From Gemmatirosa kalamazoonensis (GTDB taxonomy: Bacteria; Gemmatimonadota; Gemmatimonadetes; Gemmatimonadales; Gemmatimonadaceae): 64,000 nucleotides of DNA. Location: positions 3,022,220 through 3,086,219 of the forward strand of contig NZ_CP007128.1 of assembly GCF_000522985.1 (NCBI RefSeq). Reading direction: 5' to 3'. Made by a program: the position numbers and the translations under genes. Positions 2,219 through 17,604 of this stretch are shown piece after piece. The number at the start of each line of letters is the position of its first letter. The stretch's first letter is position 1. The notes beneath the pieces were generated by a model. That model saw only the letters and a program-made list of their open reading frames with translations. It searched no databases and was not told the DNA's origin.

Positions 2219-3615
2219 TCACGGCCCGCTGATGCCGAGCCGCTTCATACGCCGGTAGAGGCTCGGGCGATCCGTCTGGAGGCGGCGCGCCGCCTCCGCG
2301 ACGTTCCCCGCGGCCGCCGCGAGCGCGCGCGCGAGATCAGCTCGCGCTCGTAGTCGTCCAGCGCCTCCGTGAGCGGCACCTCGCCGTCGACGCTTCCCCG
2401 CGCGGCATCGCGTGGGGCCGGCACGGCGGCGAGCGCCGACGTCGGCGTGTCGTCCACCGGCAGCACCTCGCGCACGTGCCACCCGGTCACGCGCTCGCCG
2501 CCGTGCAATATCGCGAGCCGCTCCACGATGTTCGCCAGCTCGCGCACGTTCCCCGGCCAACGATAGCGCGCCAGCGCCCGCATCGCGTCCTCGCCCCACT
2601 GCGGCGCCGGTGCCCCCGACCGCGCGCGGTAGAGCGCGGTGAAGTGCGTCACGAGCGCGGGCAGATCCTCCAGTCGGTCGCGCAGCGGCGGCAGCGCCAC
2701 CGGCACGACGTTCAGGCGGAACAGCAGATCGTCGCGGAACGTCCCCTCGCTCGCGCCGCGCGCGAGGTCCTTGTTCGTCGCCGACACGATGCGCACGTCG
2801 ACGCGGATCGGCTTTCCGCCGCCCACGCGCTCGATCTCGCCGGCCTCGATCGCGCGCAGCAGCTTCGCCTGTGCCTCCGCGCCGAGGTCGCCCACCTCGT
2901 CGAGCAGCAGCGTGCCGCCGCTCGCGAGCTCGAACCGCCCGATGCGCCGCTCGGTCGCGCCGGTGAACGCGCCGCGCTCGTGGCCGAACATCTCGCTCTC
3001 CACGAGGTCGCGCGGGATCGCCGCACAGTTCACGCGCACGAACGGCTTGTCGCGCCGCGGGCTCGCCGCGTGGATCGCCGCCGCCGCGAGCTCCTTCCCC
3101 GTGCCGCTCTCGCCCGTGATCAGCACGCGGGCGTCGCTCGACCCCACGCGCGCGAGCAGCTCGCGCAGCGCGTGCATCGGTGCGCTGTCGCCGATCATCG
3201 TCCCGGCGAGCCCCAAGTCCTCGCGCAGCGCGCGTGCGGCGCGCCGTGCCTGCCGCAGCTCAAGCGCCGCCGCGAGCGCGAGCAGCACGCCCTCGGGCGT
3301 CAGCGGCTTCTCGAGGAACGTGAACGCGCCGAGCTTCGCGGCACGCACTGCGTCGGCGAGCCCCGCGCGTCCGCTCATCATCACGACCGGCACGTCCGGG
3401 AAACGCTCGCGCAGCTTCTCCAGCACCACGAGCCCGTCGAGCTCCCCCGGCATCATGAGGTCGAGCAGCGCGACGTCCGGCTCCGCGGCCGCCGCCTGCG
3501 CGAGCCCGCTCGCCCCGTCCGCCGCGTCGCGCACTTCGTAGCCCTCCGACGCGAGCAGCGCGCCGACCATCCGGCGGATGTTCGGCTCGTCGTCGACGAG
3601 CAGGACGCTCGGCAT
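2219..3615 (-). CDS. NtrC-family sigma-54 response regulator, frameshifted near its C-terminus
   Basis: The receiver domain spans residues 1-115 with acidic D8/D9, phosphoacceptor D52 (LLDLMMPG) and K103. The AAA+ domain follows, with Walker A near 168-175 (GESGTGKE), an intact GAFTGA loop at 215-220 and Walker B near 234-241 (GGTLLLDE). The GAFTGA loop is the sigma-54 contact, so this should be a bona fide enhancer-binding activator. The reading frame drifts at an alternating CG tract (2323-2333) and stops at 2245. Removing one CG unit restores a normal Fis-type helix-turn-helix (NVAEAARRLQTDRPSLYRRM) ending at 2219. Its start overlaps the stop of the upstream gene (TGATG). The cognate kinase is the first gene of the operon. 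Whether the frameshift is real or an assembly error cannot be decided here. Confidence 0.88.
2323..2333. repeat. Alternating GC tract at the response-regulator frameshift
   Basis: Eleven bases of uninterrupted G-C alternation. Taking out one dinucleotide puts the Fis helix-turn-helix back in frame with the AAA+ domain. Confidence 0.75.
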
Positions 3616-4919: not shown

Positions 4920-5221
4920 CGCGGCCGCTCCTCTCGCTGCGCGCTCTCGGCCCACGGCGCGCCGCCCGGTGCGACCTCGGCGCTCGTGCGCTCGGCGAGC
5001 AGCTTCGTCGTGAATCGCTGCCCCTCGGAGATGCGCTCCACCTCCACCGCGATCGCGTCGATCGCCTGCTGCATCTGCGCGAGTCGCGCGCTCAGCTCCG
5101 GCGGCACGCCGCTCGGCGCGCTCTCGATGCGCCGCGCGTAGGCGCGCGCCAGCGGGATGCCGATCACCATCACCGTCGCGGCGATGATGCCGACGATCGG
5201 AATGAGGAAGGGATAGATCAT
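4916..5221 (-). CDS. Membrane-anchored two-component accessory protein, paralogue 1 (short)
   Basis: A 101-residue protein with the same architecture as paralogues 2 and 3 but without the Thr-rich N-terminal domain. A transmembrane helix starts at once (MIYPFLIPIVGIIAATVMVIG), then a basic stretch, then the shared coiled-coil motif (MQQAIDAIAVEVERISEGQR followed by LLAERT). Its ATG overlaps the kinase stop (ATGA), and its own stop overlaps the start of paralogue 2 in the same way, so translation is coupled across the set. A longer open frame reaching to 5707 is only read-through over the kinase gene. Function is unknown. Confidence 0.75.
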   Translation of the reverse strand: MIYPFLIPIVGIIAATVMVIGIPLARAYARRIESAPSGVPPELSARLAQMQQAIDAIAVEVERISEGQRFTTKLLAERTSAEVAPGGAPWAESAQREERPR

Positions 5222-6473
5222 GCGCTCACGCTCCACGACTCGGCCGACGCCGGCGGACCGGCGACGGGCAGGATGAATCGGATCTCGGTGCCGCGCCCCT
5301 CGGCGCTCTCCGCCTCCACCGCGCCGCCGTGCGCCATCACGGTCTGTCGCGCGATCGCGAGGCCGAGCCCCGTGCCGCTCGGCTTGTGTGTCACGTACGG
5401 ATCCCAGATGCGCGGCAGCAAGGTCGGCGCGATGCCGCACCCGGTGTCCGCGACGGCGACCACCACGGCCGTACAGTCGCGCAGCCGTGTCGGTGACACG
5501 CGGACCGCGATGCGTCCGCCGCCCGCGCACGCGTCCACCGCGTTCAGCAGCACGTTCGACAGCGCGCGCGCGCCAGCGCGTCGTAATGTCCACGCACGAG
5601 CGGCACATCCGGCGCCACGTCGACGTCCACGGGGAGCGACTCGGGCACCGTCGTCTTCGCCGCCCAACGCGCGAGCTCCCCGACGTCCACCTCCGATGCC
5701 GGACCATCGGGCAGGCGACCGAACTGGCCGAAGCTGCGCGCCATCGCCTCCAGCCGCGCCGTCTCCGCCGCGAGCACGTCCACCGCGTCCGCCTGCGCCG
5801 GCGTCGCGTCGCGCCGCAGCCGATCGATCGCGAACCGGATCGGCGTGAGCGGGTTCTTGAGCTCGTGCGCGACCTGGCGCGCCGTCTCGCGAAACGCCGC
5901 CGCGCGCTCCGCTTCCAGCGCGCGCGCGCGTCCGAGCTCCAGCTCGCGCGCCATCGTGCGCATGCGGTCGCGCAGCGTTCCGAACTCCGGTGCGCCGCGC
6001 GGCTCCGGCTCCTCGGGGAGCGACCGGCCGGCCTGCACGAGCGCCGTCCACCGCACGAGCTGATCGAGCGGTCGGCTGAGCTGCCGACTGAGATGCCCCG
6101 CCACGCGCGACGCGACCACCGTCAGCACCAACGCGCCGAGCACGCCCACGACCAGCACCGCGCGCACCACGCGTGGGGCGACGAAGCTGTAGCGGCGCGC
6201 GAGCTCGAGCGACCGACGCAGCTCCTGCTCGTGCGCGTCGAGGTCACGGCGCTCCGCCGCCCCGAGCGCCGCGCCGCTCGCGGCGCGGGCGCGTGCGACG
6301 GCCAGCGCGCGTTCGCCCGTCGTCGCTGCCCGCTCCCACGCCGCGCTCCCGCTCACGAGCGGCAACGCGCGGCTCACCGTTCCCGCCCACAGCAGCGTCA
6401 GGAGCACCGACGGACATACGGCGAAGAGCAGCAGGATGGTGAACAGGCGCGAGCGGAACCGGTAACGCTTCAC
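5218..6473 (-). pseudogene. NtrY-like sensor histidine kinase, frameshifted
   Basis: The intended protein is about 417 residues. It has a first transmembrane helix at 8-30, an extracytoplasmic loop, a second helix at 103-123 (VVRAVLVVGVLGALVLTVV) and a HAMP-like linker. The H box follows with H203 (QVAHELKNPLTPIRFAIDRL), then the N box (NVLLNAVDACAGGG), the G1 box (DTGCGIAP), an F-like box and the G2 box (GTGLGLAIARQ). The H-box wording with KNPLTPI is typical of NtrY-type kinases. The frame breaks at the alternating GC tract 5562-5573, just before the N box. Dropping one GC unit restores a complete kinase. It is the first gene of the operon and is divergent from yjbQ. All catalytic boxes are present, so the break may be an assembly error or tract-length variation rather than decay. 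Confidence 0.85.
5562..5573. repeat. Alternating GC tract at the kinase frameshift
   Basis: Twelve bases of G-C alternation. The upstream frame ends soon after it in a stop, while the kinase N box continues in another frame. A change of one dinucleotide joins them. A 13-base tract of the same kind at 5918-5930 in the same gene is in frame. Confidence 0.75.
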
Positions 6474-16008: not shown

Positions 16009-16350
16009 ATGGCTGCTTCCAAGACGTCGTCGAAGGGCGGCGCGAAGAAGGGCGCGCGCAAGGGCGGCGCGAAGAAGGGCGGCGCGAAGAAGGGCGGCGC
16101 CAAGCGCGGCTCGGCCAAGAAGGGTGGCGCGCGCAAGGGCAGCGCGAAGAAGGGCGGCGCCAAGCGCGGCGGCGCGAAGAAGTCGACGGCGAAGCGCGCC
16201 TCGGCGAAGAAGGGCGGCGCGCGGAAGGGCGCATCGAAGGGCGGCGCGAAGCGCGGCTCTGCGAAGAAGGGCGGCGCGCGCAAGGGCGGCCGCAAGAGCG
16301 CCGGCTCGTCGGGCGCCGCGGCCGGTGGCGCCACCGGTGGCGCGGCGTGA
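16009..16350 (+). CDS. Lysine/alanine/glycine-repeat histone H1-like DNA-binding protein
   Basis: 113 residues starting at an ATG eight bases after AAGGAG. The whole protein is a degenerate repeat of about five residues (GGAKK, GGAKR, GSAKK, GGARK). There are almost no acidic residues, and the end is neutral (SSGAAAGGATGGAA). Such tails resemble histone H1 C-terminal domains and the AlgP/Hc1-like or HupB-tail proteins of bacteria, which bind and compact DNA or bind RNA. It has no globular domain, so function is assigned by composition only. A strong terminator hairpin follows it. The repeated codons (ggcggcgcgaagaag) form an internal DNA repeat prone to length change. Confidence 0.75.
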   Translation: MAASKTSSKGGAKKGARKGGAKKGGAKKGGAKRGSAKKGGARKGSAKKGGAKRGGAKKSTAKRASAKKGGARKGASKGGAKRGSAKKGGARKGGRKSAGSSGAAAGGATGGAA

Positions 16351-16390
16351 TCGTCGCGCGTCGCGACTAACGGTAGGTCCGATAACGACT

Positions 16391-16423
16391 GAAGCCCCGC
16401 CTCAGGCGGGGCTTCATCGTTTT
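16391..16423 (+). terminator. Rho-independent terminator after the histone-like gene
   Basis: An 11-bp stem (GAAGCCCCGCC / GGCGGGGCTTC) with a 3-base loop, followed by ATCGTTTT. Confidence 0.8.
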
Positions 16424-16453: not shown

Positions 16454-16615
16454 TCACGCGGCGCGCGGCTCCGTGGCGTCGTTGGTCGCGATCGGCTCCG
16501 GCCCCGGCGCCCACTCGAACGCCGCGAACCGCGGCGGCGCGTCGTACGACTTCCCGGCCGAGATGACGATGCCCATCGCTTCCTGCACGTCGCTCTTCTG
16601 ACGTATCTGCTTCAT
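16454..16615 (-). CDS. 53-residue peptide of unknown function behind a sigma-54 promoter
   Basis: The peptide starts MKQIRQKSDVQEAMGIVISA, continues with a proline/aromatic core (YDAPPRFAAFEWAPGPEP) and ends IATNDATEPRAA. A GGAGA lies 7 bases before the ATG, which fixes the start; the longer open frame upstream lacks a ribosome site. There is no signal peptide or membrane helix. The basic N-terminal half and the Pro/Trp/Phe C-terminal half could be a leader and core of a modified peptide, or simply a small regulator. Upstream lies a -24/-12 promoter (16669-16684) and two dyad sites, so expression probably depends on sigma-54 and an enhancer-binding activator. The family is not recognised. Confidence 0.55.
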   Translation of the reverse strand: MKQIRQKSDVQEAMGIVISAGKSYDAPPRFAAFEWAPGPEPIATNDATEPRAA

Positions 16616-16668
16616 GTCCGATTCTCCGGTATGAGTACGTCCGGTGGCTCCGGACCACGCGCCCATAA

Positions 16669-16684
16669 GGCAGCGACGGTGCCA
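16669..16684 (-). promoter_or_regulatory. Sigma-54 (-24/-12) promoter for the 53-residue peptide
   Basis: Read on the minus strand the site is TGGCACCGTCGCTGCC. It has GG and GC exactly 12 bases apart and the TGGCAC...TGC core of the sigma-54 consensus. The start of transcription would fall near 16658, about 43 bases before the ATG. Confidence 0.6.
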
Positions 16685-16758
16685 CGTCGGACGCTTTCGT
16701 TAAGTCGTTGGACGGCAAGATCTTGGAAATGTTAACGGCCGCCTCGCGGGCGGCCGGG

Positions 16759-16775
16759 TGTCGCGATCCGCGACA
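16759..16775. promoter_or_regulatory. Dyad operator 1 (TGTCGCG-ATC-CGCGACA)
   Basis: A perfect 7-base inverted repeat with a 3-base spacer, centred about 109 bases upstream of the predicted sigma-54 start site. It has the same arms as dyad 2, 33 bases away. Confidence 0.65.
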
Positions 16776-16791
16776 TTCCGAGGACACGAGG

Positions 16792-16808
16792 TGTCGCGGA
16801 ACGCGACA
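16792..16808. promoter_or_regulatory. Dyad operator 2 (TGTCGCG-GAA-CGCGACA)
   Basis: An inverted repeat identical in its arms to dyad 1, extended by one more G-C pair, and centred about 142 bases upstream of the predicted start. The 33-base spacing is about three helical turns, so both sites face the same side of the DNA. Confidence 0.65.
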
Positions 16809-16815
16809 CCCGCGG

Positions 16816-17604
16816 TCACTGCGCGAGCGCCGACTTCCGCGCGAGAAACGTCGTGCCGAGCGCGCTCGCCGCGCCGCCGCCGTCGCGCTCCACGCTCACC
16901 GCCCAGCCGTCGTAGCGCGCGCGCAGCTCCTCCACCGACAGCGCCGCCGAACCCGCGACGAGCGTCGACACCAGATGCACACCGCCGTCGAGCGTCGCGC
17001 TCTGGAGCAGCTCGATCGCCGCCGCGCGCTCGCTCGGCGTGAGATGCTCGAACGCGGTCGGCGTGCACACCACCACGCGCAGCGCGACGTCGGGCGCCCA
17101 CTGCGCGAGATCGCCCACGCAGCCGCGCACACGCTCGCTCAGCCCCGCGACTTCCGCCGCGTGCATCACGCGCTCCACCGCGTCCGGCTCGTGCGCGAGC
17201 GCGGTCACCGCGCATCCGTGCGCCGCCGAGTACATCGCCGCGCCCTCGCCGTCGACACCCGCCACGAGCACGTGGCTTCCGTCCGACTGCGCGAGCTCGC
17301 GCGCGAGCGCGCTCGTCGGCGCGAGGCCCCAGTGCTCCGGTCGGCGATACTCGGCGAGGATCTTCAGCCGGCGCTGCCGCCATACGCGGTAGCTCGGAAG
17401 CCGGAGCCGACGCGAGATGATGCGATCGACTTCCTCCCACAGCACCATCTCCGTCAGCGTCGTCTGCGCCTGCTCACGCAGCCGCGCGACCGCCTCGTCG
17501 CCGATCGACAGCAGTGCCGTGCGCGAGATCGTATCCTTGTACAGCTCGATCTCGCGCTCGACGAACAGCTCGTATTCGTGCTTGAGGGAACGCGGCGCGG
17601 ACAT
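16816..17604 (-). CDS. Class I SAM-dependent methyltransferase-like protein
   Basis: A 262-residue protein. The first 100 residues are helical and charged (KHEYELFVEREIELYKDTIS and a WEEVDRIISRRLRLPSYRVW stretch). From about residue 112 a Rossmann-type methyltransferase core begins: VLVAGVDGEGAAMYSAAHG as the glycine-containing motif I, AHEPDAVERV as the acidic motif II, CVGDLAQWAPD as motif III and VVVCTPTAFEHL as motif IV. The substrate is unknown. It lies on the same strand as the small peptide gene, 200 bases upstream of it, with the two dyad sites between them. It is divergent from fpg. The peptide has its own promoter, so a shared operon is uncertain. Confidence 0.65.
   Translation of the reverse strand: MSAPRSLKHEYELFVEREIELYKDTISRTALLSIGDEAVARLREQAQTTLTEMVLWEEVDRIISRRLRLPSYRVWRQRRLKILAEYRRPEHWGLAPTSALARELAQSDGSHVLVAGVDGEGAAMYSAAHGCAVTALAHEPDAVERVMHAAEVAGLSERVRGCVGDLAQWAPDVALRVVVCTPTAFEHLTPSERAAAIELLQSATLDGGVHLVSTLVAGSAALSVEELRARYDGWAVSVERDGGGAASALGTTFLARKSALAQ

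Follow-up and report, generated by a model that had tools for sequence, protein, structure and literature searches.

A conserved sigma-54-type promoter with paired upstream sites precedes the gene of a ~50-residue orphan peptide in Gemmatimonadaceae

The window analysed here is a stretch of 64,000 nucleotides (C2:3022220-3086219) from a Gemmatimonadaceae genome of 7.48 Mb in four contigs. On its minus strand lies the gene of a 53-residue peptide (MKQIRQKSDVQEAMGIVISAGKSYDAPPRFAAFEWAPGPEPIATNDATEPRAA, 16454..16615), which is present in a single copy in this genome and conserved family-wide. It is preceded by a Shine-Dalgarno-like GGAG (16624..16627, 8 nt 5' of the ATG, as read from the sequence), a sigma-54 -24/-12 promoter (TGGCACCGTCGCTGCC, 16669..16684; family consensus TGGCAc-N5-gTGCt), an IHF-like site of the form CAANNNNTTR (CAACGACTTA, 16701..16710) located 26 bases 5' of the -24 box, a GC-rich hairpin (16736..16756), and two putative upstream activator sites, one proximal (TGTCGCGGATCGCGACA, 16759..16775) and one distal (TGTCGCGTTCCGCGACA, 16792..16808). 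Directly upstream, on the same strand, is the gene of a 262-residue methyltransferase-like protein with a TehB fold (16816..17604). Also on the minus strand are the gene of a candidate activator, an NtrX-like response regulator with a sigma-54 AAA+ domain (2219..3615), and, near it, that of a sensor histidine kinase with HAMP, HisKA and HATPase_c domains (5218..6473). A plus-strand gene for a lysine-rich, histone-H1-like protein with KKGGAK repeats (16010-16350) is convergent with the peptide gene, and a strong terminator lies at 16390-16416.

The preliminary description of the locus had reported a sigma-54 site, two dyads in an enhancer-like layout and a small open reading frame with a ribosome site, and these observations are confirmed. 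The minus-strand site at 16684-16669 has the 12-base spacing between -24 GG and -12 GC and comes close to the consensus TGGCAC-N5-TTGCW; the two dyads (TGTCGCG-GAT-CGCGACA at 16759-16775 and TGTCGCG-TTC-CGCGACA at 16792-16808, minus strand) are exact, and their spacing is 33 bp from start to start. A longer open reading frame listed by the ORF program begins at an ATG at 16666, upstream of the predicted transcript start. The genome encodes rpoN and at least one activator, as a sigma-54 promoter demands: rpoN, whose absence the preliminary description had said would count against this reading, is there as a single gene, accompanied by 12 strong matches to sigma-54 activators. Nor are the dyads spread at random, since TGTCGCG-N3-CGCGACA has three exact copies genome-wide, two of them at the peptide locus, and the reversed control pattern has none. 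The expected pairing of dyads with -24/-12 sites stands at the peptide locus and fails at the third copy (G000 C2:199501, L001:1501-1517), which is found upstream of a gene for an ADOP-type permease; the 260 bp to each side of it contain no convincing -24/-12 site. The best evidence against chance is the recurrence of the layout among relatives, not the statistics of the window alone.

Recurrence upstream of similar small peptides had been proposed as strong support, and it is found throughout the family and in sister families. Among the first 30 loci, a site of the TGGCAY-N6-TGCW type is found 5' of nearly every homologue. In the 21 loci that were fully read, 18 TGTC...GACA pairs lie 5' of the promoter (0.76 in dinucleotide shuffles), and 13 of these loci have at least one pair (0.74 in shuffles). 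A hold-out of 40 further loci, sister families included, has the same layout in most cases, TGTC falling near -87 and GACA near -77; the layout is missing in a few distant hold-out loci (for example L115, L118, L124 and L127). The cleanest set comprises 80 public loci found solely through the upstream methyltransferase-like gene, 78 of them with enough room for a scan that ran as far as the peptide and kept the top-scoring site, in the real sequences as well as in the shuffled and reversed ones. Promoter scores of at least 9 were reached in 65 of these 78 loci, many of which are related and so do not count as 78 independent events; shuffles gave 4.9 such loci and the reverse strand 7.

In the same set, the positions of TGTC cluster at -87/-88 and -120/-121, those of GACA at -76 to -78 and -110 to -112. 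The paired sites of relatives are about 34 bp apart, at fixed distances of about -88 and -121 relative to the -24 box. At the proximal position 66 of 70 loci have a TGTC or GACA half site, and at the distal position 63 of 70 do. This pairing at a conserved helical spacing and distance is what is expected of a sigma-54 enhancer. The window's dyads have the form TGTC-N9-GACA, and most relatives have N5 or N7. CAANNNNTTR is the core of the IHF consensus; it is found between the paired sites and the promoter in 40 of 70 loci, as against 3.5 after shuffling, and its position is almost always -25/-26 or -40/-41. An IHF site located between the activator site and the promoter is a usual feature of RpoN promoters (PMC7962754). 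With this recurrence, rpoN and the 12 activators, the regulatory reading of the locus, as first proposed from the enhancer layout, is supported.

The 5' leaders of the peptide genes have features of their own. One is a hairpin with a constant seven-base loop, ACCGTTC, on variable complementary stems of 6-18 bp, seen in 8 of 70 leaders (L247, L250, L254, L264, L270, L284, L287 and L299) as compared with 0.44 in shuffles; variants with CCGTTC are seen in other leaders. Going by its sequence, this hairpin is a possible element of control at the RNA level; with just 8 of 70 leaders carrying it, we dropped it as a universal feature. In leaders of the Gemmatimonas group (L229-L243), a GGAGG Shine-Dalgarno sequence sits in the loop of a small conserved hairpin, GGGTGGAGGNTCACCC, immediately 5' of the ATG.

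The conserved part of the peptide reads EPxGIVISRGSRxExxPRFSAYVWGPxPE and is flanked by a short, mostly charged N-terminus and a variable tail that usually ends in AA. A search with the single sequence gave matches at E <= 0.1 in 62 of 99 related genomes, mostly in its own family. A profile built from 30 homologues was run against 395 genomes of the phylum and detected the peptide in 163: in nearly all members drawn from its own family and in part of two sister families of the order, with weak matches in other families of the class. Third codon positions take 240 of 354 changes, and dN/dS is about 0.15 over 13 independent close pairs; to judge from these substitutions, the peptide is a real protein family under purifying selection. 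Pfam, NCBIfam, PHROGs and PDB hold no relative of it, and a search of public genomes with the single peptide sequence returned no match. The AlphaFold model (pLDDT 72, pTM 0.19, no secondary structure assigned) would be more in keeping with a disordered binding peptide than with a small enzyme. Homologues inspected by eye showed neither a hydrophobic N-terminal signal nor a double-Gly leader with an exporter. The suggestion that the product is secreted, modified or a signalling peptide is so far unsupported, no hydrophobic N-terminus and no universal modification enzyme having been found, and secretion or modification has no positive evidence. The peptide is most likely a conditionally made, disordered effector or adaptor inside the cell.

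The gene order around the peptide is largely constant. In all 21 loci first examined, the methyltransferase-like gene lies directly upstream, with an RlmI-like gene farther upstream; 19 of the 21 also have an Fpg-like gene of opposite orientation, and Tdh and Kbl lie downstream in 17. In the public set, the peptide follows within 350 bp of the methyltransferase-like gene in 76 of 78 loci, and the adjacency extends to sister families. Nearly all relatives that could be named through this neighbour belong to Gemmatimonadaceae or Gemmatimonadetes, and Roseisolibacter is the nearest of them (71% identity). The neighbour has the TehB fold (TehB-like by profile, TehB as top match in Foldseek, AlphaFold pLDDT 91). 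Its sequence has VLVAGxxxEG in place of the DxGxGxG of SAM motif I, and its most conserved part is a helical N-terminal domain of about 90 residues. Among possible modification enzymes encoded near the peptide, this degenerate methyltransferase-like protein alone is constant.

By linkage and co-occurrence in the sequenced genomes, the NtrX-like response regulator appears to be the best candidate for the activator. A helix-turn-helix of this class, with a C-terminus of the form ...VAEAARRLxTDRxNLYRRMKRLG, was found in 91 of 99 genomes, and in all 39 genomes with both genes on one contig the NtrX-like gene lies 3' of the peptide gene on the same strand, at a median distance of 14 kb (range 9-41 kb). 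The peptide was detected in about 70 of the 91 genomes with the NtrX-like gene and in one (G008) of the eight without it, in hand counts that ignore kinship. G048, at 1.8 Mb the smallest of the complete relatives, has just two activators, one of them NtrX-like. Long-range linkage and co-occurrence may also reflect plain old gene order and shared ancestry. In relatives the AAA+ domain and the helix-turn-helix share one open frame; in the window the receiver and AAA+ domains are intact, and the helix-turn-helix is out of frame after a run of CG dinucleotides near 2320. The kinase at 5218-6473 is likewise split over two frames by an apparent frameshift, and both breaks could be sequencing error, phase variation or decay.

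A search for further targets in the window's own genome with the double site gave 26 matches, apparently mostly in coding regions, compared with 10 for the control. A search of 128 family genomes for the proximal site and promoter at their fixed distance recovered the peptide locus and apparently sporadic matches, with no obvious recurrent second target among matches that were not sorted gene by gene; the motif is thus without confirmation at a second promoter. Exact sigma-54 sites in two small genomes numbered 16, below the 47 of the reversed control, and the only further target-like genes there were ECF-sigma-like and HtpX-like. A consensus -24/-12 site lies 66-67 bases 5' of an ECF-sigma-factor-like open reading frame in L212 (G048) and L224 (G198), with GACA at -89, and a similar site lies 5' of an HtpX-like gene in L213.

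Other readings of these data have to be weighed, beginning with the regulatory region. The dyads might belong to the terminator of the upstream gene or serve as an operator for a repressor, with a match to -24/-12 that arose by chance, as the distal dyad begins 7 nt past that gene's stop codon and the two near-identical palindromes of the window can fold jointly as one long RNA hairpin. In relatives, however, the terminator is a hairpin of its own with a T-run, the TGTC...GACA sites do not shift relative to the -24 box, and the promoter motif is conserved with GG and TGC constant. On this conservation we rejected the dyads as a terminator, and the reading as a whole is very improbable; by its position and that of the T-run hairpins in relatives, the third inverted repeat of the window (16736-16756), between dyads and promoter, is instead the probable terminator of the methyltransferase-like gene. 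That an activator other than the NtrX-like one drives the promoter is a possibility of more weight, if still not the one we favour. A second class (with the helix-turn-helix ...NVAETARVLEMPRSNLYKK...) is present in G048 and most genomes checked and so is an equal candidate by presence, both classes being widespread, and the NtrX-like frame is broken in the window. On the other hand, linkage to the peptide locus was observed for the NtrX-like gene alone (same strand, 39 genomes), and G031, which lacks an NtrX-like gene, also lacks the peptide.

As to the product, a special case of the reading that we prefer is that the peptide binds and switches the TehB-fold neighbour, as activator, inhibitor or missing active-site element. 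The adjacency in nearly all loci and in sister families argues for such a partnership, as do the well-predicted fold, the degenerate cofactor site and the strongly conserved N-terminal helical domain; yet a terminator-like hairpin separates the two genes, the peptide has its own promoter, and co-location may be old synteny. The idea is tentative. Less likely still is a precursor of the RiPP type, which the methyltransferase-like protein or, in some lineages, a neighbouring metallopeptidase, ATP-grasp enzyme or TldD/TldE would modify and cleave before its export as an antimicrobial or signal. The small size, the variable tail and the nearly constant methyltransferase-like gene upstream are in keeping with this, and in about 30 loci a Peptidase_Mx-like metallopeptidase gene and then a D-Ala-D-Ala-ligase-type ATP-grasp gene lie directly 3' of the peptide gene on the same strand, 40-1450 bases past it (L041, L044, L052, L292 and about 26 others). 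TldD/TldE pairs face the peptide gene in about 28 loci (L040, L042, L051, L054, L246, L302 and others), and some loci have both pairs. But the metallopeptidase is missing from the window's genome and from many other peptide-bearing genomes and is therefore not needed in general, which led us to reject maturation by metallopeptidase and ATP-grasp as the general case; ATP-grasp and TldDE genes accompany the peptide in part of the loci, not wherever it is found. Further, conservation is in the centre of the peptide and not in its tail, without familiar leader motifs; the methyltransferase-like protein lacks the usual SAM motif I; the conserved neighbourhood has no exporter gene; and curated families give no match. 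A RiPP precursor is accordingly unlikely.

The layout of promoter and upstream sites, its conservation, the coding peptide, the constant neighbour and the linkage to the NtrX-like gene, all established computationally, are best joined in one reading, to which we give a probability of roughly three in four: a conserved, dedicated sigma-54 unit in which an NtrX-like activator and an IHF bend control a ~50-residue peptide that acts as an intracellular binding partner. We infer that sigma-54 RNA polymerase waits as a closed complex at 16669-16684, and that an enhancer-binding protein in dimeric form, most probably the NtrX-like regulator, binds and oligomerises at the two TGTC...GACA dyads, which are spaced by about three helical turns. 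Bending of the DNA at the intervening IHF-like site would then let the activator's ATPase open the promoter for actual transcription. A ~50-residue peptide without an autonomous fold would be translated from a short leader, made only while the activator is on, and would most likely act inside the cell as a binding partner—an adaptor or inhibitor—through EPxGIVIS...PRFSAYVWGP. In a more specific form, a one-target sigma-54 circuit, Gemmatimonadota class-wide, would have an NtrX-type system switch on a disordered 50-residue peptide as allosteric partner of the cofactor-degenerate TehB-fold neighbour; this would be a new kind of stress-switched peptide regulator if true, and we consider it rather doubtful.

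Gemmatimonadota, an abundant group in soil and freshwater, have hardly been studied genetically. Here a conserved orphan small protein of the phylum gains a full regulatory region, a candidate regulator and a candidate partner, which makes its input signal and function directly testable. The same promoter 5' of peptide relatives in nearly every Gemmatimonadaceae genome points to a dedicated on-demand switch open to experiment, and the TGTC-N5..9-GACA pairs are a putative binding motif with which other targets of the regulator might be found. As far as our searches reach, the peptide family, its dedicated control and its link to the NtrX-like regulator and the TehB-like neighbour are new: at the level of titles and abstracts, the literature on sigma-54 or RiPP peptides in Gemmatimonadota does not describe the family, and no counterpart of the TGTC...GACA pair at a fixed distance was found in the literature searched.

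Several parts of the locus resemble known systems. The neighbour's C-terminal domain is similar in fold and sequence to the tellurite methyltransferase TehB, from which the protein differs by its degenerate SAM motif I and its extra conserved N-terminal helical domain of ~90 residues. In Rhodobacter, control of the cell envelope is a role of NtrX from the NtrYX system (PMC7240162). Our candidate appears to share the make-up of receiver, AAA+ and Fis-type HTH and lies near a HAMP/HisKA kinase; unlike in that system, the window's activator keeps the GAFTGA loop for sigma-54, and both window genes look frameshifted. PilR sites of Pseudomonas pilA promoters contain TGTC at about -120 to -80, a possible parallel to the TGTC-containing sites described here, which lie at a similar distance from a sigma-54 promoter; the target here is no pilin. 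The promoter type itself is textbook: sigma-54 promoters with tandem upstream activator sites and an IHF site are those of the glnA, nif and pilA type, in which, as here, the -24 GG and -12 GC are 12 bp apart and paired dyads lie 80-125 bp upstream in helical spacing with an IHF-like site between; what sets this one apart is its target, an uncharacterised peptide of ~50 residues.
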